DNA of 64,000 bases, from contig NZ_CP133548.1 in the NCBI RefSeq assembly GCF_031198435.1, positions 1,304,501 to 1,368,500 of the forward strand, in the 5' to 3' direction. Made by a program: the position numbers and the translations under genes. The notes under the pieces were generated by a model. That model ran no database searches. It was not told where the DNA came from and saw nothing but the letters and a program-made list of their open reading frames with translations. This DNA is from Pleionea litopenaei. Lineage in GTDB: Bacteria; Pseudomonadota; Gammaproteobacteria; Enterobacterales; Kangiellaceae. Positions 10,128 to 23,809 of the stretch are shown piece after piece. Every line of letters begins with the position of its first letter. Position 1 is the stretch's first letter.

Positions 10128-11135
10128 CTAGGTCCAAGACACCAATAATTGTTTAATTTGACTCGGTGTATAGCCGGTCCAACGTTTGACCGCTCGCCGA
10201 AAATTAGTCACGTCGGAATATTGCAAGTACTCTGCCACTTGCTCATTGCTATAGCCAGGTTGCTGCAACCAATGTAAGGCCTGATGTTTACGCACAGTGT
10301 CATGCAGTCCTTGAAAGGATAAACCATAGTCGCTCAATTTGCGCTTAACCGTTGCTTTACTCATTCCAAGTAAATCAGCAACTTGTTCTAGGTTGCTGAA
10401 GCGCTCATTCCGAATTAGCTGCATGATCAACTGCGGTGTCGTGGGTAATCCATCATCGCACTTTTGATACTCGCTGATCACTCGACGAGCGCGCCATGTA
10501 TTTCCTTCAGAGAACTTAAAGTTAAGCCATTTCTTTTCAAAAACAACACTAAACGCAGGCTGATTAAACTGCAAGCGAGTTCCGAGCCGCTGCTCATACT
10601 CCATCACATTTTTTGGGCGGGCGTGAGAAAAGTTAAACCAAGATTTAACCCAGTGCCCAGTCAAACGCTTGAGTGTATGTGCTAACAAATAGCTTTGAAA
10701 CTCTGCCATGAACTGAGAATGTGCACTTGGTATATCAAACATTGGAGAGTAATAAACTTCTACTCTTTGTGCTGTAATAAAGCTTTGAGCCAACATCAGA
10801 GGTGAATAACGAAAGCAGTGTGCATTTAAAATACGTAATGCTTGCCCCAAACGGTTCGAATTAGACAGTGCAGCCAAGAGATTGGCCTGCTCATACAACA
10901 AATGCTCGGCCAAAATAAATGCCGAGTCAGGCTCAGGCCGAAGTTGCGAGATGGTTTTAAACAGGCGCCGTTGTTGCTCAAAACTAATCGCTAATTGACT
11001 ATTGTGTAAATCAATAGGCTCTAGCCCCGTACCATGTAACAACCGACGTCTAGACAGACTAAATCGCTCACAAAAGGCGACCGAGGCCAATAAAGCTGGC
11101 GTTAAAGATTGACTTTTATGCCTCGAATTAAGCAA
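10128..11135 (-). CDS. AraC-family transcriptional regulator (OruR/ArgR-like N-terminal domain)
   Basis: 335 residues. N-terminal arabinose-binding-like domain of the PF12625 type (start SVAFCERFSLSRRRLL ... LHNSQLAISFEQQRRLFKTI). The C-terminal ~100 residues hold two helix-turn-helix units: NLEQVADLLGMSKATVKRKLSDYGL and the conserved AraC end YSDVTNFRRAVKRWTGYTPSQIKQ. It overlaps the end of the upstream degenerate-GGDEF gene by 8 bp, so they form an operon. Position next to the divergent TonB receptor/phytase pair makes it a plausible local regulator; that is inference. Confidence 0.85.
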   Translation of the reverse strand: MLNSRHKSQSLTPALLASVAFCERFSLSRRRLLHGTGLEPIDLHNSQLAISFEQQRRLFKTISQLRPEPDSAFILAEHLLYEQANLLAALSNSNRLGQALRILNAHCFRYSPLMLAQSFITAQRVEVYYSPMFDIPSAHSQFMAEFQSYLLAHTLKRLTGHWVKSWFNFSHARPKNVMEYEQRLGTRLQFNQPAFSVVFEKKWLNFKFSEGNTWRARRVISEYQKCDDGLPTTPQLIMQLIRNERFSNLEQVADLLGMSKATVKRKLSDYGLSFQGLHDTVRKHQALHWLQQPGYSNEQVAEYLQYSDVTNFRRAVKRWTGYTPSQIKQLLVSWT

Positions 11136-12036
11136 TGCGAAGCTCTCTCTGTGAAGCAGTCTTTAATCGCTCAAATCTTTCCGTGATGTTAAAAAATAAT
11201 GATTCAACCGTATCCGAATCAGAGCATTGCACAAGAACACAAGACACGGTTTGTTGCTTAACCGTCTGCTGTTGCTGTGACTTAAAGGATAAGTTAGCAA
11301 TAGCCGCTTCAATTTGTTGAAGTTGTGCCTCTGCGTCTTCAATAGAAATGGATGGTAGGTATATAATAAATCGATCTCCAGCATAACGGCAAACCAAGTC
11401 ATTCAAACGGCTATTCATTAAAATCAGCTCTGCGATATTCCGTAAAAACCGATCACCATCAATGTAACCATTATGCTGATTGAACGTTCCGAAGTCGTTA
11501 AGATCAAGAGCCGCCAAACAAAAGTCACATTGCCTCTGCTCGAGCTGATGTTTAATAAAGTCATGCATATACACGCCTCTATACAAGCCTGTAATAGGAT
11601 CGATTGCAGAGTACTCTCTAACACCGTATTCGCGCTTACGTAACACTTCATTAATCGACATTTGCTCACGATGCCAGTGATACAGTCCATAAGAAAGTAA
11701 CAATAGACCGACAGGAGCTGGCAACGATTCAAACCAAGAAAGAAAATTACTCGATGACACGCGAACAAATTCGTCGCATAAATCAAACAAGGAGGATGTC
11801 AAGAAAGCGAGCAGACCTAGTACTAGGTAGTTAGTTACAGTGCCGGCTGGTCGAGAAACTAATATTGCAACCAGCCAACTTAGCGTCATCAAAAAAATCC
11901 CACCTTCGCCTAACACATCCAACCATTTGATTTCACTCATGGTTTTTAAAGTCCCGGCCTCAATAGCCACTAAAATGGATATGGATATAACGACGATCAC
12001 GAGTGATTTCAAAAAATAGCGAGAAAATGAAAACAT
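11128..12036 (-). CDS. Membrane protein with degenerate GGDEF domain
   Basis: 302 residues. Four hydrophobic segments (about 8-25, 45-61, 68-82, 107-117) precede a GGDEF-fold domain from ~144 (DPITGLYRGVYMHDF). The active-site motif reads AGDRF (219-223) instead of GGDEF: the first Gly is Ala, which some active cyclases tolerate, but the Glu needed for catalysis is Arg. The metal-site loop is also unusual (DLNDFGTFN). It is therefore probably a non-catalytic GTP- or protein-binding sensor rather than a diguanylate cyclase. It is first in an operon with the AraC regulator (8-bp overlap) and has a Pho-box-like sequence 85 bp upstream. Confidence 0.75.
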   Translation of the reverse strand: MFSFSRYFLKSLVIVVISISILVAIEAGTLKTMSEIKWLDVLGEGGIFLMTLSWLVAILVSRPAGTVTNYLVLGLLAFLTSSLFDLCDEFVRVSSSNFLSWFESLPAPVGLLLLSYGLYHWHREQMSINEVLRKREYGVREYSAIDPITGLYRGVYMHDFIKHQLEQRQCDFCLAALDLNDFGTFNQHNGYIDGDRFLRNIAELILMNSRLNDLVCRYAGDRFIIYLPSISIEDAEAQLQQIEAAIANLSFKSQQQQTVKQQTVSCVLVQCSDSDTVESLFFNITERFERLKTASQRELRIA

Positions 12037-12101
12037 GACTTATCTCGATGGTTGGTTGATGACACCTGCAATGATAAAAAATAGTGACTCATTTGCATCG
12101 G

Positions 12102-12125
12102 GTCATTTTGGCTCGCAGAAATGAC
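12102..12125. other. Inverted repeat in the divergent phytate-locus promoter region
   Basis: Arms GTCATTT (12102-12108) and AAATGAC (12119-12125) with a 10-base spacer overlap the minus-strand Pho-box-like site. The whole divergent spacer (12037-12359, 323 bp) otherwise holds only the two Pho-box-like sites and no gene. Confidence 0.35.
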
Positions 12126-12138
12126 AAAAACATGACCG
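12121..12138 (-). promoter_or_regulatory. Pho-box-like sequence before the GGDEF-AraC operon
   Basis: Read on the minus strand it is CGGTCAT-GTTT-TTGTCAT, two 7-base units with 11-base periodicity. It matches the E. coli PhoB consensus (CTGTCAT, 4 bases, CTGTCAY) at 12 of 14 unit positions. A CAAAAT -10-like hexamer follows 10-11 bases downstream, the normal placement for PhoB-activated promoters. The site is 85 bp upstream of the GGDEF start codon. Confidence 0.5.
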
Positions 12139-12256
12139 AGTGAGATAAATCATCATAACAATGGTCCTTAATATGGTTAAACCAACGGGTCTTTTCAGCT
12201 CATTCCTCTCTTCTGCCGTTCAGTTTCCTCTTAAATTCAATGTTAGATGACGCTCA

Positions 12257-12274
12257 CTGTCATAAAAGCGTCAC
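12257..12274 (+). promoter_or_regulatory. Pho-box-like sequence before the TonB receptor/phytase operon
   Basis: CTGTCAT-AAAA-GCGTCAC: first unit perfect, A-rich 4-base spacer as in the E. coli consensus, second unit 5 of 7. It lies 86 bp upstream of the receptor start. This predicts induction of phytate uptake/hydrolysis under phosphate starvation through PhoB. Confidence 0.62.
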
Positions 12275-12359
12275 TCTTTCACTCTACCTTTCAGCCAATA
12301 CAACATGCTGGTAGCTCATCATACTGGCTAAAAACTTAACGTCTTGGAGCTTTAACCCT

Positions 12360-14660
12360 ATGAAATATGCAACCATTCCATTCGCATTGGCTGCGGTCAG
12401 CGGATTTACCGGATCGATTCAAGCCGACACAACAAAGCCTGCTGATGAAGAAGTCAAAGTAGCAGAAGAGGTAGTGGTTTATGGTGAGATTGGATACCGC
12501 AACCGATCTAACGAGATCAATCAAACACTTGAGTATGATCAAGAGTACTTTCAACGCTTCGAACCTTTAACTGCTGGCGATGCACTAAAACGGATTCCCA
12601 GCGTCACCTTTTTGTCAGATGTCATTGAATCAGATGGTGCGCGTATGCGCGGCTTAAGCCCTGGGTACACCCAGATATTAATCAACGGAGAGCAAGTACC
12701 TGGCTCAGGATCCGACCGCTCCTTTTTTCTTGATCGAATACCCGCTGAACTGATTGAGCGTGTTGAAGTCGTGCGCGCCAACAGTGCCAACCGTTCTGGC
12801 GATGCTATCGCAGGAACTTTAAATATAGTCTTGCGAGACGGATTTAGTTTAGACGGTGGCTACATAAGAGCAGGCGGTCTCAAATTTAGCGATAATGAAA
12901 TGAAAGAAAGTATCTCTGCTATTTGGGGCGGTAAAGTGGGAAGCGGCCGCTTGATCGTTGGGTACAACCATCAAGGCCGCTACAATCCTAAACAAAAAAC
13001 CAGCTTACGCTACGGCGATTCTCCGGAAAATAATCCTAACTATCAAAATGACGACTTCGACAATCGCGAAACACAAAGCGATGTTCGAGATGGAACAGAT
13101 CGGTCCTTAAACATCAATTACAGTTTGGCTTTCGGAGAAAACTCATCCGTTGAGCTATACGGATTTTTTGTCAACACTGATAGAGAAGAAATTGAACGAT
13201 CATTCGAATACAATGACCCATCTAGTACTATTGGTTTAGCAGCAAGTGGAGGAAATTTAGAAACCGACAACGCTAATAATGCTGATATTGAGCAAAGAAA
13301 TTTTAGTGTCGGTACAAAACTGACCACACCCTGGCTAGGCGGTATAGCAAAATTTAAAGCTACCGTTGCAAAGTTTGATGAGTTTGTCTTCGAATGGGAA
13401 GATGAAATTGATACGTCTGAAGTCCCTTTTGTTTTTGAAGAAGAACGAACCATCGTCGATTTAGTTGATGATGAACACTCCCTTAGTTGGTCTCAAAGTT
13501 ACTCGACAACTACTGACCAGAAAATTGAATTTGGCCTTTTTGCCCAAGAAAAAGAGCGCTACTCAAACATTCTTGAATCGGAAGACGAGCGCGAAGTCTC
13601 CAATAATTGGGATCCTGAAATTCAATCTCCAAACAATTTGGCCTTGCACAATGCACCTTTTCAATCCGTGCCCAGCGCTCACAGCAACATAGAAGAAACT
13701 CGGGCCGATGCGTTTTTCTTAGTGAAGCAAAAGATGCTCTCGTTGTCTTGGGAGGTCGGTGTAAGATACGAATCAACCAAATTTTCAATCGAAGACCTAT
13801 CTTTAAGTAACGCTCCAACCATTAAACAGGACTACTCTTTTGCCCTTCCATCCGCTCATATTCAATATCAACTCGATGACAATGACCGATTGCATTTCTC
13901 TGTAGCCAAAAGTGTCCGTCGTCCTAACTTTGACTACCTAACACCTGCGTTAATTGAAAAAGAGTTTGGCGATAATGACTTGCAAGGGAATCCATTTTTA
14001 AAACCTGAAACTTCTGTAGGGCTTGATTTTGGAATTGAACATCGTATTGGACAAACCGGAGTCGTTGGACTCAATGTTTTCTACCGAAAAATAAACGACC
14101 TAATAGAATTAACCAATACTGGTATTGAAGGCTCTGAGGGACCAAGTACTTTTGTACTCAAACCTGAAAATCTTGGTGATGGAACGGTTAAAGGCGTTGA
14201 ACTCGATCTTTCAACGCCACTTTCTATTATCAACCTAGAAAATACCGGTGTGTTTCTAAATTACTCAGTGCTCGATAGCGAAGTTGATGATTTATTTGGA
14301 AAGCGAACATTCAATGATCAAGCCAAAAATGTATATAACCTTGGCTTTATTCAAGATCTACCCGATAGCAACACGTCATTTGGATTAACCTATCGAAAAC
14401 AAGGAAGCGCTTATGGTCGAATTATTGGTGAGGAAGTCACTACTTCTTATGGCGCAGACTTAGAGTTATTTATCGAAAAACGCTGGGATAATTTGACGTT
14501 AAGGTTGGTTGGTTCAAATTTATTAGATGCAGAAAAACGAGAAGCATTCAATAAGTTTGACACCATCGACGATCAGTTAACTAGAAACTTTGACGAATTC
14601 GAACTTGAACAAGAAAATGCGGGTTCTTTTTATCAGCTAATGCTTCGTTATGCATTCTAA
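12360..14660 (+). CDS. TonB-dependent outer-membrane receptor
   Basis: 766 residues. Signal peptide ends near residue 22 (SIQA). A TonB-box-like stretch (EEVVVYG, ~36-42) precedes the plug domain (~50-160; DALKRIPSVTFLSD, RGLSPGYTQILINGEQVP, IPAELIERVEVVRA, GDAIAGTLNIVLRDG), followed by a 22-strand-type barrel ending in an aromatic (LMLRYAF). It would import a substrate across the outer membrane using TonB energy. The phytase lipoprotein gene follows after 35 bp, so the likely ligand is phytate (inositol hexakisphosphate), a breakdown product, or its metal complex. This receptor-phytase pairing is known from marine gammaproteobacteria such as Shewanella. No cobalamin riboswitch is seen upstream. 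Confidence 0.9.
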   Translation: MKYATIPFALAAVSGFTGSIQADTTKPADEEVKVAEEVVVYGEIGYRNRSNEINQTLEYDQEYFQRFEPLTAGDALKRIPSVTFLSDVIESDGARMRGLSPGYTQILINGEQVPGSGSDRSFFLDRIPAELIERVEVVRANSANRSGDAIAGTLNIVLRDGFSLDGGYIRAGGLKFSDNEMKESISAIWGGKVGSGRLIVGYNHQGRYNPKQKTSLRYGDSPENNPNYQNDDFDNRETQSDVRDGTDRSLNINYSLAFGENSSVELYGFFVNTDREEIERSFEYNDPSSTIGLAASGGNLETDNANNADIEQRNFSVGTKLTTPWLGGIAKFKATVAKFDEFVFEWEDEIDTSEVPFVFEEERTIVDLVDDEHSLSWSQSYSTTTDQKIEFGLFAQEKERYSNILESEDEREVSNNWDPEIQSPNNLALHNAPFQSVPSAHSNIEETRADAFFLVKQKMLSLSWEVGVRYESTKFSIEDLSLSNAPTIKQDYSFALPSAHIQYQLDDNDRLHFSVAKSVRRPNFDYLTPALIEKEFGDNDLQGNPFLKPETSVGLDFGIEHRIGQTGVVGLNVFYRKINDLIELTNTGIEGSEGPSTFVLKPENLGDGTVKGVELDLSTPLSIINLENTGVFLNYSVLDSEVDDLFGKRTFNDQAKNVYNLGFIQDLPDSNTSFGLTYRKQGSAYGRIIGEEVTTSYGADLELFIEKRWDNLTLRLVGSNLLDAEKREAFNKFDTIDDQLTRNFDEFELEQENAGSFYQLMLRYAF

Positions 14661-14695: not shown

Positions 14696-16645
14696 ATGAA
14701 AATCAGAATTTATACCATTATTGTCGTAACTTCATTAGCTTTAATGACTGCGTGTCAGAGCAAGAAAACGGATAAAGGGCCGCTTGTAGCGAACTTAAAT
14801 CGAGTAGAATTTAATGAGCTTTCCAGTCTTCCATTGAAGGCTACCGATGTATCTATACGACAACATTCCATCATTATCCAAATGAATCCATTATTAACAC
14901 TTCAAACTATCGATGAAGAAGGTATTGCCTTATATCAAGGGAAGCGACGCTTGGCTCATCTTCCCGGTCGATATGAAGAGATTAAAATTGGACAGAGTTC
15001 GGCTAACTCTAACCGACAATTTTTTGTCATTGCTCTGAATCAGGTCACTGGCTACTTAGACCTATTCCTTATCAAAGGTGAACAGCTGTCATTTCTTCGT
15101 AGTTATTCAAATTTAGTAAACCCAGAGCAGTTTTGTATTAACGTAAACAAAGATCACTACGTTTCGATCGTCGCCATCGATGATATTGGTATAGCAACTG
15201 AAGTAATTGCGTTCGATTTCACTTCTAATCAATCGATCAACAAAGAGTTACGCCGAATGGCGGTTTCTCCACAAGCAGAAGCCTGCGCTATCGACTCTAT
15301 CAATCAACTGCTGTACGTTGCAGAAGAAGACATAGGAGTATGGAAGTACTCCCTTAACGCCGAGTCTGATGGTAGTAAGACTCCAGTATTAATGAATAAG
15401 CCGCTTGGGTCAATTAACGCAAATATAGAAGCGCTTGCGGTTCGCGCCGATAGAAGTTTGCTTATTAGTTTAAGCAATGGAGAAATTTTACTTTCACACC
15501 ATCAGCATCAAATTTCAGCAAAAGAAGTGTTTGAGCAAAACATCGAAAAGCTATTTATTATAGATGATCAAGGGACCGAAATTATCAGCGCTCACCAAGA
15601 ACAAAATTCTCACTACTATTCAACATCATTCACTCATAAACAACAGAGTGACTCAATCGAGAGAAATTTGGTAAATCAAACAGAGAACATTCAAACAATC
15701 ATCAACATAGTCAGTAATAATGAAACCGATGAAGTCGGCAGCTCAGGCGATGCCGCCGATGACCCCGCGATTTGGATTAACCCAAACAACCTCTCTCAAA
15801 GTTTGATACTAGGTACGGATAAAAAATCAGGCTTAAATGTTTTCGATTTAAACGGCAAGTCTCGACAAAAACTTAAAGTCGGCCGGCTGAATAATGTTGA
15901 TGTATTTTCCTCAACAAATAGTCAAAACACACCGCCAAGACTTATCGCAGCCAGCAATCGTTCCAACAACAGTATCTCGTTCTTTACTGTAGATAAAAGA
16001 AACCAAGTTATATTTTTAAGTAACATACCCACTACCCTATCTGAAGTCTATGGGCTGTGCGTCGGTCAAAATGACCAGGACGCTTGGGTTTTCATCAATG
16101 ATAAAGACGGGCGCTATCAGCAATATCGAATCGATACATTTAAAGAAAAGGTGAACGCTCGATTAGTCAATGAGTTTGCATTGCCAAGCCAACCAGAAGG
16201 TTGTACTTTCGACCCAGAAACTTCTAGGCTGTATATGGGAGAAGAAAAGGCTGGAATTTGGGTGCTCAACGTTAACTCTAAAAGCCAATCACCAGAGAAG
16301 ATCATCGAAGCTGGGAATGGTCTAGTACCTGACGTAGAAGGGATGGAGATCTATCGAACGGAAAAAGAAAAACTACTAGTTGTTTCAAGTCAAGGAAACG
16401 ATAGCTATATGATCTATGACCTGAACCAGCAGCTTAGAACTCGTTTGAACTTTAAGATTATAATGAACATAGGAAAAGGAATCGATGGCGTTTCTGAGAC
16501 AGACGGACTTACGGTCACATCATCACCATTACCTGGTTACCCTGCCGGAATATTAATTGTTCAAGATGGAAGAAACAGGCTGCCAGAGCAAACTCAAAAC
16601 TTTAAAATTATAGATTGGCGCTCGATTCAAAAAGCACTCAATTAA
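14696..16645 (+). CDS. Two-domain beta-propeller phytase lipoprotein
   Basis: 649 residues. Lipobox LMTAC (Cys20) predicts a lipoprotein. The C-terminal half (~340-649) is a beta-propeller phytase: DAADDPAIWINP near 352, GLNVFDLNGK, GRLNNVDV, ASNRSNNSISFF, QPEGCTFDPETSRLYMGEEKAGIW, DVEGMEIY, SSQGNDSY and SETDGL match the calcium- and phosphate-binding loops of the family. Residues ~40-330 form a second, degenerate propeller half; its AEACAIDSINQLLYVAEEDIGVW mirrors QPEGCTFDPETSRLYMGEEKAGIW of the active half. Dual-domain phytases with an incomplete N-terminal domain are known and the extra domain is thought to help phytate binding. It would release phosphate from phytate at the cell surface. 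The gene is convergent with rimI. Confidence 0.9.
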   Translation: MKIRIYTIIVVTSLALMTACQSKKTDKGPLVANLNRVEFNELSSLPLKATDVSIRQHSIIIQMNPLLTLQTIDEEGIALYQGKRRLAHLPGRYEEIKIGQSSANSNRQFFVIALNQVTGYLDLFLIKGEQLSFLRSYSNLVNPEQFCINVNKDHYVSIVAIDDIGIATEVIAFDFTSNQSINKELRRMAVSPQAEACAIDSINQLLYVAEEDIGVWKYSLNAESDGSKTPVLMNKPLGSINANIEALAVRADRSLLISLSNGEILLSHHQHQISAKEVFEQNIEKLFIIDDQGTEIISAHQEQNSHYYSTSFTHKQQSDSIERNLVNQTENIQTIINIVSNNETDEVGSSGDAADDPAIWINPNNLSQSLILGTDKKSGLNVFDLNGKSRQKLKVGRLNNVDVFSSTNSQNTPPRLIAASNRSNNSISFFTVDKRNQVIFLSNIPTTLSEVYGLCVGQNDQDAWVFINDKDGRYQQYRIDTFKEKVNARLVNEFALPSQPEGCTFDPETSRLYMGEEKAGIWVLNVNSKSQSPEKIIEAGNGLVPDVEGMEIYRTEKEKLLVVSSQGNDSYMIYDLNQQLRTRLNFKIIMNIGKGIDGVSETDGLTVTSSPLPGYPAGILIVQDGRNRLPEQTQNFKIIDWRSIQKALN

Positions 16646-21301: not shown

Positions 21302-23809
21302 TTGACCCAAATATTGCTGGTTGAACCATCGCCCACCCTGAGGTTTGGGTTAAATCGATTGCTACAGCAAGCTGGCTATCATGTCGAAAGTATCGATAAA
21401 TATGCCTCTCTATTCGACAAGCTCGTTCCCAAAAATGGTCATACAGACTCCCCTCCGGATCTCCTGATCGTTGGATGGCCGACGCGTGATCGTTCAGCGC
21501 AGTGTCGACTTATTACTGAGCTTAACAGAGAAAAATTTAAACAGGTACCAGTGGTCATATTTGCCCGAACGATCGACGAAACTAACCTCAATGCTTTGTC
21601 AGACCGACCACGCTTAATGATTCAATTGTGGAGCGATTTTCAAAAGAGTCTTTCGCGAATAAAGCAGATGGTTGAGCTATCTGAACAAGCGCTAGAGGCT
21701 CGATCAAATCACCAGTTCAAAGCCCTCTTAGTAGACGACTCAAAAAGCGTTAGAACCATTTATGGTCGAAAGCTCAAGCAAATGGGACTCGACGTTACGC
21801 TTGCTGAAGACGCTGATGACGCCTGGGAAAAATTACAGCAGCAGCATTTTGATATGGCGATTATCGATTACTTTATGCCCGGTGATAATGGCGCCATGTT
21901 ATGCCAGAGGATTGCCGACTCCGGACGTTTCCCAGGAATGATAAGAGCCATCTTAACGGGTACCTACAAAGAAGAAATTATATCTGAATGTATAAATGCC
22001 GGTGCTCGAGAATGCATGTTTAAGAATGAGTCTATGACGTTATTCCAAGCGAGAGTCACGGCCATGATTAAACAACTGCAGTCGAATGTTAAACTCGATC
22101 AACAAAACCGTGATCTCGTTAATATTCTTACGTCGATAGGCGAAGGTATCTATGGAGTCGATCAAAATGGCGTTTTAACATTCATCAATCCCACCGGATT
22201 AGAAATTTTACGTTACTCCGCTCCTCGTGAGCTACTCGGAAAGAAGGCCCATGAACTCTTCCATCATTCAGATGAATATGGCCGTTCAATCAATGATGAA
22301 ACCAATTATTTATATCAAGCTTATCTCCTTCAAGATTCCTTACGAGATTGGGAAACCGTTTTCTGGACGGCCGATCAGACGCCGGTTCATGTCGAGTGTA
22401 CTATACAGCCACTCAGCCATAATCAGTCCTCCGGTAATGGGAGTGTGGTGGTCTTTAAAAATATTTCTGAAAGAAAGCTGATTGAAGACGAGATCAACTG
22501 GCAGTTAAATCATGACCATCTGACTCAGTTACTTAATCGCACCTACTTTGAGCGATTGTTGCAACAAGAAATTCAAACCGTGCAAGTAACGCAAACGCAA
22601 AGTGCTCTGCTCTACATTGACCTCGACAACTTCAAACAAATCAATGATCAAGCAGGACACTCCGCAGGTGATCAACTGTTGGTAACCATCAGCGAGAAAA
22701 TTCGCTCACGCCTGCGTCATCGAGATCTTGCTGCAAGACTGGGTGGAGATGAGTTTGCAGTACTTCTTCACGACATTAAACCGAGTGCTTTAGAATCACT
22801 AGCCAATTCATTTCGGGATGTACTGGCACAGACTCATTTTTCTTATCAAGACCAAGAGTTTCCGGTTTCAGGAAGCATCGGCGTTAGTGCGATTACCCAA
22901 CAATGTCAGGATATCAAGCAACTGATGGCGCAAGCCGATCGTGCGTGCGCCAAAGCCAAACAAGCCGGAAAAAACCAAATTGTCGTCTGCCAAGACCATG
23001 AGTTCATTGCAGCTGAAAATACCGCTAAGGGTTGGAAGAATCGCTTAAAGCAAGCACTCAGTGAGCACAAGTTTACCTTACTTTATCAACCTATCTATTC
23101 ATCATCCGATATTTATAAACATCTTGAGCAACAAACTGACAATCACGTTTGGCAAGGTATCGACGAAATTTCTCCGACAGAATACGAAGTTTTAATTCGA
23201 TTAGAAGATCATGATGGAGAGCTTTTATCTGCAAATGCTTTTTTGAGCGACGCAGAGCGTTTTGATTTAATAGCCGACATCGATCTTTGGGTGTTAAAGC
23301 AAGCGCTATCAAACTTAACCAAAGCACAGCTCGCCAAGCCTGTGAATATAAATTTCTCGGCGCATAGCTTAATCGATGACACGAATGTAAAACAAATAGA
23401 GTCGTTGCTTACGGAATACTCAGACGTTGCACGGCTTATTCGAATCGAATTAAAAGAGCATCATATTTTGCATTATCGTGAGGCGTTAGCGCCAGTGATG
23501 GAACGATTGGTTGATTTAGGCTGTCAATTTCAAATAGATGACTTTGGAAGAAACTTTAGCCTATTTTCACGACTTCGCGAATTGCCAATCATGGGAATCA
23601 AAATCGACGGTTTATTCACGGCCAACATCGCTTGGGATCCGGTCGATAAAAAGTTGCTGCACTCAATGATAGAAGTCGCGCGAACCAGTCAGATAAAAAC
23701 CACAGTCAAATCCATTGAATCGCTCGATTCGCTTAAACATATTGAACATGGTGGTGTCGATTTAATTCAAGGGTATTTGCTCGGAAAACCCATTGAAATA
23801 GAAAGTTAA
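21302..23809 (+). CDS. REC-REC-PAS-GGDEF-EAL cyclic-di-GMP signalling protein
   Basis: 835 residues, TTG start with AGGA ~12 bases upstream. Domains: receiver 1 (~1-125) lacks the acidic pair and the phosphoacceptor Asp (PDLLIVGWP), so it is a pseudo-receiver. Receiver 2 (~140-260) is intact (LLVDDSKS, IIDYFMPG, ILTG, MFKNES). A PAS domain spans ~265-390. The GGDEF domain (~405-560) has the canonical RLGGDEF and an intact DLDNFKQIND. The EAL domain (~570-830) reads EVLIRLE for the signature and keeps DDFG and KIDG, but its EGVE-equivalent loop is KSIE. Likely a diguanylate cyclase whose phosphodiesterase activity is weak or lost. Confidence 0.88.
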   Translation: MTQILLVEPSPTLRFGLNRLLQQAGYHVESIDKYASLFDKLVPKNGHTDSPPDLLIVGWPTRDRSAQCRLITELNREKFKQVPVVIFARTIDETNLNALSDRPRLMIQLWSDFQKSLSRIKQMVELSEQALEARSNHQFKALLVDDSKSVRTIYGRKLKQMGLDVTLAEDADDAWEKLQQQHFDMAIIDYFMPGDNGAMLCQRIADSGRFPGMIRAILTGTYKEEIISECINAGARECMFKNESMTLFQARVTAMIKQLQSNVKLDQQNRDLVNILTSIGEGIYGVDQNGVLTFINPTGLEILRYSAPRELLGKKAHELFHHSDEYGRSINDETNYLYQAYLLQDSLRDWETVFWTADQTPVHVECTIQPLSHNQSSGNGSVVVFKNISERKLIEDEINWQLNHDHLTQLLNRTYFERLLQQEIQTVQVTQTQSALLYIDLDNFKQINDQAGHSAGDQLLVTISEKIRSRLRHRDLAARLGGDEFAVLLHDIKPSALESLANSFRDVLAQTHFSYQDQEFPVSGSIGVSAITQQCQDIKQLMAQADRACAKAKQAGKNQIVVCQDHEFIAAENTAKGWKNRLKQALSEHKFTLLYQPIYSSSDIYKHLEQQTDNHVWQGIDEISPTEYEVLIRLEDHDGELLSANAFLSDAERFDLIADIDLWVLKQALSNLTKAQLAKPVNINFSAHSLIDDTNVKQIESLLTEYSDVARLIRIELKEHHILHYREALAPVMERLVDLGCQFQIDDFGRNFSLFSRLRELPIMGIKIDGLFTANIAWDPVDKKLLHSMIEVARTSQIKTTVKSIESLDSLKHIEHGGVDLIQGYLLGKPIEIES

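Follow-up and report, generated by a model that had tools for sequence, protein, structure and literature searches.

The 323-bp spacer between two divergent gene pairs of Pleionea litopenaei is probably the control region of a phytate-use locus with two inputs, PhoB and the locus's own AraC-type regulator, judging from its sequence and from those of its orthologues. It lies in a stretch of 64,000 nucleotides (the window, analysed as a whole) of a 4.42 Mb genome. The spacer is flanked on the left by an operon for a membrane protein with a degenerate GGDEF domain and an AraC-type regulator, and on the right by genes for a TonB-dependent receptor and a phytase. Two outward-facing Pho boxes and two same-orientation copies of a 16-bp motif lie between them. 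The features, in window coordinates, are:

10128..11135, minus strand: AraC-type regulator, with PF12625 at the N-terminus and a PF12833 helix-turn-helix; encoded second in the left operon, orthologues aligned
11128..12036, minus strand: membrane protein, helical at its N-terminus, whose GGDEF domain is degenerate (AGDRF; RLND at residues 210-213); first gene of the left operon
12100..12115, plus strand: putative operator copy 1, GGGTCATTTTGGCTCG, one mismatch to the motif; overlaps the left -10-like hexamer
12105..12110, minus strand: -10-like hexamer CAAAAT of the left promoter, assigned by its position 10 bp past the left Pho box, within operator copy 1
12121..12138, minus strand: left Pho box, CGGTCATGTTTTTGTCAT; directed at the GGDEF-AraC operon and 84 bp from the GGDEF ATG at 12036
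12187..12202, plus strand: putative operator copy 2, GGGTCTTTTCAGCTCA, two mismatches; its start precedes that of the right Pho box by 70 bp
12257..12274, plus strand: right Pho box, CTGTCATAAAAGCGTCAC; directed at the TonB receptor-phytase operon and 85 bp from the receptor ATG at 12360
12285..12290, plus strand: -10-like hexamer TACCTT of the right promoter, assigned by its position 10 bp past the right Pho box
12360..14660, plus strand: TonB-dependent outer-membrane receptor; first gene of the right pair
14696..16645, plus strand: beta-propeller phytase (PF02333, two matched stretches)

The divergent locus and its relatives

Pfam matches show that an AraC-type DNA-binding domain is present in the regulator (PF12833, E = 7.2e-16; PF12625, E = 2.2e-17), whose reading frame has TTG as its first start codon and overlaps the 3' end of the GGDEF gene, and that a beta-propeller phytase domain is present in the phytase (PF02333, E = 2.3e-72, over the gathering score). 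Among 60 relatives, the four genomes of the same genus gave no phytase match, and the footprint was therefore built on distant orthologues. From a phytase scan of genomes we retained the best 80 of 571 loci, and 48 of these 80 carry a relative of the GGDEF gene on the opposite strand, including loci from Pseudoalteromonas, Alteromonas, Paraglaciecola, Glaciecola, Neptunicella, Acinetobacter, Stutzerimonas, Pseudomonas, Alcanivorax, Cellvibrio, Methylophaga and Chitinimonas. The divergent layout, with AraC and GGDEF genes facing away from a TonB receptor and a phytase, recurs across Gammaproteobacteria.

The 48 loci and the window, less three whose called spacers exceed 450 bp (L007, L042 and L050, excluded from pooled counts), gave 46 spacers, which were dereplicated into 30 clusters. 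Locus L085 was kept among these despite a poor GGDEF match and no AraC match, and L040 entered the Pho counts as having no right box, which is present once the receptor start is corrected. Two further loci, L234 (G049) and L235 (G050), were examined outside the 30 clusters.

A plasmid search for the GGDEF protein returned 102 records, and five of the ten listed were examined. Four of the five are annotated, and in all four the GGDEF-AraC pair lies opposite phosphatase genes, accompanied in three by TonB receptors and a phytase or metallophosphoesterase. Among 369 genomes drawn from the class, that of P. litopenaei included, two others hold an orthologue of the GGDEF protein at E <= 1e-60. The distribution of the phytate-use module is patchy.

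The content of the structural arm varies. On the Acinetobacter pittii plasmid (L253), the regulators sit alongside tolQR and two phytase pieces, with two alkaline phosphatases on the far side of the GGDEF-AraC pair, while in P. xiamenensis (L251) they face a receptor and a metallophosphoesterase, and no phytase is annotated in the stretch. One slot holds two receptor types with the same regulators and spacer sites (L011 compared with L025 and similar loci): a type of about 2.3 kb, 60-62% identical to that of the window, and a type of about 2.7 kb with partial matches only, at about 23-35%. The P. fuliginea locus (L007:6160-6740) keeps the regulators, an operator and the phytase and shows no receptor match.

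Pho boxes on both arms

Each Pho box consists of two CTGTCAT-like units with an 11-bp period. The original prediction had placed one such site in front of each operon, and both are found there, facing outwards at 85 and 84 bp from the start codons. It had also called the minus-strand site the weaker, which is slightly true by trained matrix (16.1 for the left box, 17.6 for the right) and reversed by mismatches to CTGTCATNNNNCTGTCAT, of which the left box has two and the right box three. The matrix was trained on 27 boxes (16 facing pstC, that of the P. litopenaei pst-phoB operon, and 10 facing phoB), all picked by resemblance to the E. coli consensus and none taken from phytase loci. Scored in this way, as the prediction had proposed, the right and left boxes rank first and second among 127,966 window positions, and both scores fall inside the range of the relatives' pst and phoB boxes (leave-one-out scores of 8.6 to 28.5 for the 27 training boxes). 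A box facing pstC was found within three mismatches in 16 of 21 relatives' promoters, the 21 being chosen from the listed matches. The P. litopenaei pst-phoB operon is itself preceded by a one-mismatch box and its PhoB scores above the family cut-off; PhoB presumably uses this type of box in its own genome.

Conservation among orthologous spacers, one of the two points on which the original prediction was to stand or fall, speaks for the sites. At up to three mismatches, the 30 clusters contain 34 outward and no inward Pho sites, compared with a mean of 0.34 outward sites (maximum 3) in 200 dinucleotide shuffles of the spacers; a left box is present in 16 clusters, a right box in 16, and both in 11. 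The outward sites peak at the 11-bp period alone, with ten other unit spacings giving 0 to 8. A reversed-pattern control gave seven sites, all outward, and is not clean, probably due to the CTGTC that it has in common with the Pho box. With the matrix (score of at least 8), the left box is found in 14 clusters, the right in 23 and both in 13, with inward counts of 1 and 0. The left, regulator-facing box is less conserved than the right; roughly half of the clusters have only a weak one or none. A site scoring at least 14 is present in 15 of the 30 clusters when just the right arm is counted, whereas of the 32 phytase loci lacking a GGDEF relative only one (L053) has such a site anywhere; many of these 32 come from other classes, and lineage may account for part of the contrast. 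Predicted PhoB-type sites are present on both arms, that of the regulators included, and on this comparative evidence they are very likely functional.

Simple pattern counts are less telling. The window contains three matches at up to three mismatches against 5.08 expected in shuffles, which is not above chance, and two of the three share the one 323-bp spacer. Genome-wide, there are 304 such matches against 222 in a read-backwards control, a modest excess, and 37 against 8 at up to two mismatches, where one repeated sequence contributes eight of the 37. A chance origin of the pair was rejected on the trained matrix, orientation, spacing and conservation, for which the three-mismatch counts alone would be insufficient.

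Several of the genomic matches deserve description. The eight identical 18-base matches (C1:232652, 241983, 611123, 658406, 682912, 687430, 694568 and 1991878), two of which (L094 and L097) sit inside a transposase-like gene, are probably an insertion sequence and not regulation. A one-mismatch site (L149:1857-1874; C1:2641856-2641873) precedes a set of genes for chitin use, which encode a GbpA-like LPMO and two GH18 proteins that carry chitin-binding modules. Another site (L148:2158-2186; C1:272157) consists of three 11-bp Pho-type units in tandem, upstream of a small ORF and a protein with a PstS-like PBP domain. The pst operon also occupies a divergent spacer (L147:14818-14969), where a second Pho-type site faces a porin gene.

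The original prediction read the whole locus, regulators included, as a single phosphate-starvation unit. The conserved PhoB-type sites on both arms uphold part of this claim, but the account is incomplete, and a gate responding to two signals fits better than phosphate starvation alone. We prefer such a gate because the left box is the less conserved (14 of 30 against 23 of 30), because the spacer carries two extra conserved operator-like elements, and because an exoproteome study of three Pseudomonas strains, in the excerpts that concern phytases, gives no evidence of PhoBR regulation for those of two strains, DSM4166 and SBW25, and suggests phytate itself as their inducer (PMC5082522). The loci that we compare with that study come from Stutzerimonas and Pseudomonas related to those two strains. 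Were PhoB alone to switch both operons, with the AraC and GGDEF proteins acting elsewhere or only modulating, then Pho boxes with PhoB-type -10 spacing on both arms would be expected, as found, and excerpts of work on Flavobacterium johnsoniae, of another phylum, supply a counter-example to the Pseudomonas finding, a phytase and its neighbouring TonB transporter being raised by phosphate depletion (PMC8115612). Two conserved putative operators, one of them phased with the right Pho box, together with the Pseudomonas phytases, make this simpler scheme unlikely.

A 16-bp motif spaced against the Pho boxes

Aligning the window with 16 Alteromonadales-type spacers brought out the 16-bp motif GGGTCATNTTNGCTCA, often present twice per spacer in one orientation. 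At up to three mismatches there are 42 plus-strand and no minus-strand sites in the 30 clusters (mean of 0.4 in 100 shuffles), with two or more copies in 17 clusters, one in eight and none in five. In the 13 clusters outside the discovery alignment, 12 plus-strand sites fall in eight clusters, again with none on the minus strand (200 shuffles, mean 0.21). Operator copy 1 (12100-12115) is the sole match in the genome at up to one mismatch. At up to two mismatches there are 30 matches against 27 in a backwards control, and these comprise the two in this spacer, 26 inside ORFs, one straddling a gene end (L268) and one intergenic elsewhere (L263). The motif has no large regulon in this genome, and lone two-mismatch copies mean little; the case is made by pairing, position and conservation. 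The 32 phytase loci that lack the GGDEF gene (428,450 bases) gave a single match within two mismatches, in a Stutzerimonas stutzeri locus (L036) whose contig ends shortly upstream of the receptor and which has a Pho box at +70 from the motif.

We consider these copies to be candidate operators of the locus's AraC regulator, which would act with PhoB, the link to AraC being the co-occurrence of the motif with the GGDEF and AraC genes. Since the two genes co-occur at the motif loci, association by itself names no binder, and another regulator might bind the motif, to which L263, as one more intergenic two-mismatch match, would also be congenial. A regulator with several duties should nevertheless have other intergenic targets, whereas L263 is the only one among the 30 matches, and the motif is nearly absent where phytase loci lack these regulators. 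Its GGTCA and GCTCA sub-sites are moreover 10 bp apart, a spacing that would suit the paired helix-turn-helix units of a single AraC-type monomer, and we rate a different binder as improbable, a little more so than control by PhoB alone. Within the open-licence literature, we recognised no paper for this operator or for a Pho box at this locus, and none that joins a phytase or TonB receptor with an AraC-GGDEF pair.

The geometry of the right promoter is strict. The sequence TANNNT occurs exactly 10 bp after the box in 22 of 23 right arms (box score of at least 7), and among other offsets from +4 to +21 it is seen at +4 and at +21 only, one time each; of 16 pst promoters, 8 have it at +10. Left arms have TANNNT at +10 in 6 of 17 and YANNNT in 13 of 17 (by eye). 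Taking copy 2 as the last operator site scoring at least 7, and measuring from its start to the best right Pho site, the distance is 68-70 or 79-81 bp in 23 of 30 clusters, values that a random offset between 30 and 170 would hit 4.3% of the time. Low-scoring right boxes enter this count at L046 (-0.1), L052 (5.5), L071 (6.0) and L033 (6.5). The seven clusters that do not fit are L008 and L038, where copy 2 is uncalled and a degenerate copy lies at -70; the Acinetobacter locus L030, which has Pho boxes but no operator within three mismatches, with a degenerate copy at -59; L041 (59); L040 (70 with the corrected start); L044 (42); and L085 (none). The 11-bp steps in this spacing argue for two proteins on one face of the DNA.

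Copy 1 lies 21-22 bp from the left Pho box, over the -10, in most Alteromonadales-type loci, and on the opposite side of that box in Pseudomonas-type loci. Autorepression through copy 1 therefore cannot be general, and the effect of AraC on its own promoter may differ between lineages. In 23 clusters the two operator copies are separated by 76-146 bp, distances that agree with a helical repeat of 11.2-11.5 bp; as independent length classes are few, phasing between the copies is no more than suggestive. A reading in which copy 1 serves the left promoter merely as an extended -10, with copy 2 as an upstream element unrelated to it, is very improbable: YANNNT does fall at +10 inside copy 1 in 11 of 17 left arms (by eye), but both copies have one 16-bp motif in one orientation, and copy 1 is kept even when it lies upstream of the left Pho box (L043 and L037).

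Individual loci differ in how many of the four sites they hold. L234 carries all four, its left box scoring 15.0, its right box 10.6, and copy 2 standing 70 away from the latter; so does plasmid L250, with spacings of 21, 87 and 70. Plasmids L251 and L252 have operators and weak Pho sites at the expected 70, and plasmid L253 has a left box of 16.5 with the other sites weaker. Of the two loci from the genome draw, L254 has operators and a right box of 21.6 at 69, and L256 has operators only, with no clear Pho box; neither has a left box at a score of at least 5. At L249 the operators are accompanied by no Pho site scoring more than 3.6. In L235 the left box is weak (6.8), operator-like sites point both ways, and the stretch examined contains no right box scoring 4 or more. 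The receptor-side box is present in the Stutzerimonas loci L040 and L036.

A degenerate GGDEF protein and proposed control by two signals

The motif of the GGDEF protein was tallied in 51 members, giving AGDRF in 25, AGDCF in 18, GGDRF in three, AGDKF in two, and AADRF and AADRY in one each, with L085 unreadable. The catalytic glutamate, the fourth motif residue, is replaced by arginine, cysteine or lysine in 50 of 50 readable members. An I-site RxxD five residues before the motif is kept in 46 of 51, missing from L046, L047, L052 and L071 and unaligned in L085. An AlphaFold2 model of the protein (mean pLDDT 92.6, pTM 0.63) places long helices at residues 6-27, 38-61, 66-87 and 106-138 before the GGDEF fold, and invariant positions include D40, E44, R62, D85 and D88. 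Besides GGDEF and GGDEF_2, no Pfam family was matched by more than two of 30 members. The protein is probably a receptor and no longer an enzyme.

Continued synthesis of c-di-GMP by this protein, acting locally, would find a precedent in AGDEF and SGDEF variants of the first residue, which can be active according to the excerpted text of PMC3974145, but it is scarcely credible when the fourth residue is changed in every readable member, when that same text has the fourth-position glutamate present and needed in active AGDEF proteins and an E to A change in VCA0965 abolishing the effect on motility, and when the GGDEF matches at 15 of 17 scanned loci of relatives keep the glutamate (no motif was found in the other two). 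Elsewhere in the window (21302-23809), a response-regulator protein with a canonical GGDEF motif and I-site offers an active-type contrast.

Taking the predicted sites, their conservation, their spacing and the loss of the GGDEF motif, all of which are there in the sequences, we infer as follows which proteins bind, in which direction they regulate, the DNA loop, the ligand and a link to c-di-GMP. The first input would be phosphorylated PhoB, bound at both outward Pho boxes, each in place of a -35, and permitting expression of the receptor-phytase and regulator operons during phosphate starvation. The second would be the AraC-type protein of the locus on its two same-orientation operators. Placed upstream of the right Pho box on a constant face of the helix, copy 2 would aid PhoB at the receptor and phytase when a substrate signal is given, while copy 1, which in the window and nearer relatives covers the -10 of the promoter that serves the regulators themselves, would probably limit expression of the regulators, perhaps with the involvement of a loop between copies 1 and 2. 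The membrane GGDEF protein would probably make no c-di-GMP while keeping the motif to bind it, and would probably relay a signal to its AraC partner from the same operon. The full scheme, an AND gate in which PhoB and a dedicated AraC protein share one DNA face, with a catalytically dead membrane GGDEF protein feeding a c-di-GMP or substrate signal to AraC in a widespread but patchy module, is tentative, and we hold it with distinctly less assurance than two-input control as such.

Parts of this arrangement have counterparts in known systems. As in promoters of the PhoB regulon, both relatives' pst and phoB and those of E. coli, two 7-bp units stand 11 bp apart with a -10-like hexamer 10 bp on; unlike those promoters, two boxes here stand back to back in one divergent spacer and are joined by a local operator pair. 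The araC-araBAD region of E. coli likewise has an AraC-type regulator, divergent promoters, and same-orientation sites spaced in helical steps, one of them on the regulator's own promoter. The partner activator here would, however, be PhoB and not CRP, a membrane GGDEF partner is encoded alongside, and looping is a proposal. A receptor adjoining a phytase, with phytate uptake proposed, is described in excerpts on Citromicrobium (PMC3400609) and on Flavobacterium Fjoh_1367/1368, the latter with low-phosphate induction (PMC8115612), but a text search for AraC and GGDEF drew a blank in both papers. The degenerate GGDEF receptors PopA, PelD, CdgA and SgmT have similarly lost the active-site motif and kept the RxxD I-site, and are among the proteins named in the excerpted PMC3974145, whereas the protein here has a helical membrane N-terminus without a common Pfam family and shares an operon with an AraC regulator at a nutrient-uptake locus.

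Phytate is a major organic phosphate store. Pho boxes that are present and yet may need a second, local key would offer a testable answer to the Pseudomonas phytase finding in the excerpted exoproteome study (PMC5082522). The locus connects a receptor-like, catalytically dead GGDEF protein with an AraC regulator and gives exact sites and spacings, and the operator motif with its spacing can be used to find further members. If the proposed scheme is true, the scavenging of organic phosphate would be tied to the second messenger of surface and biofilm life.
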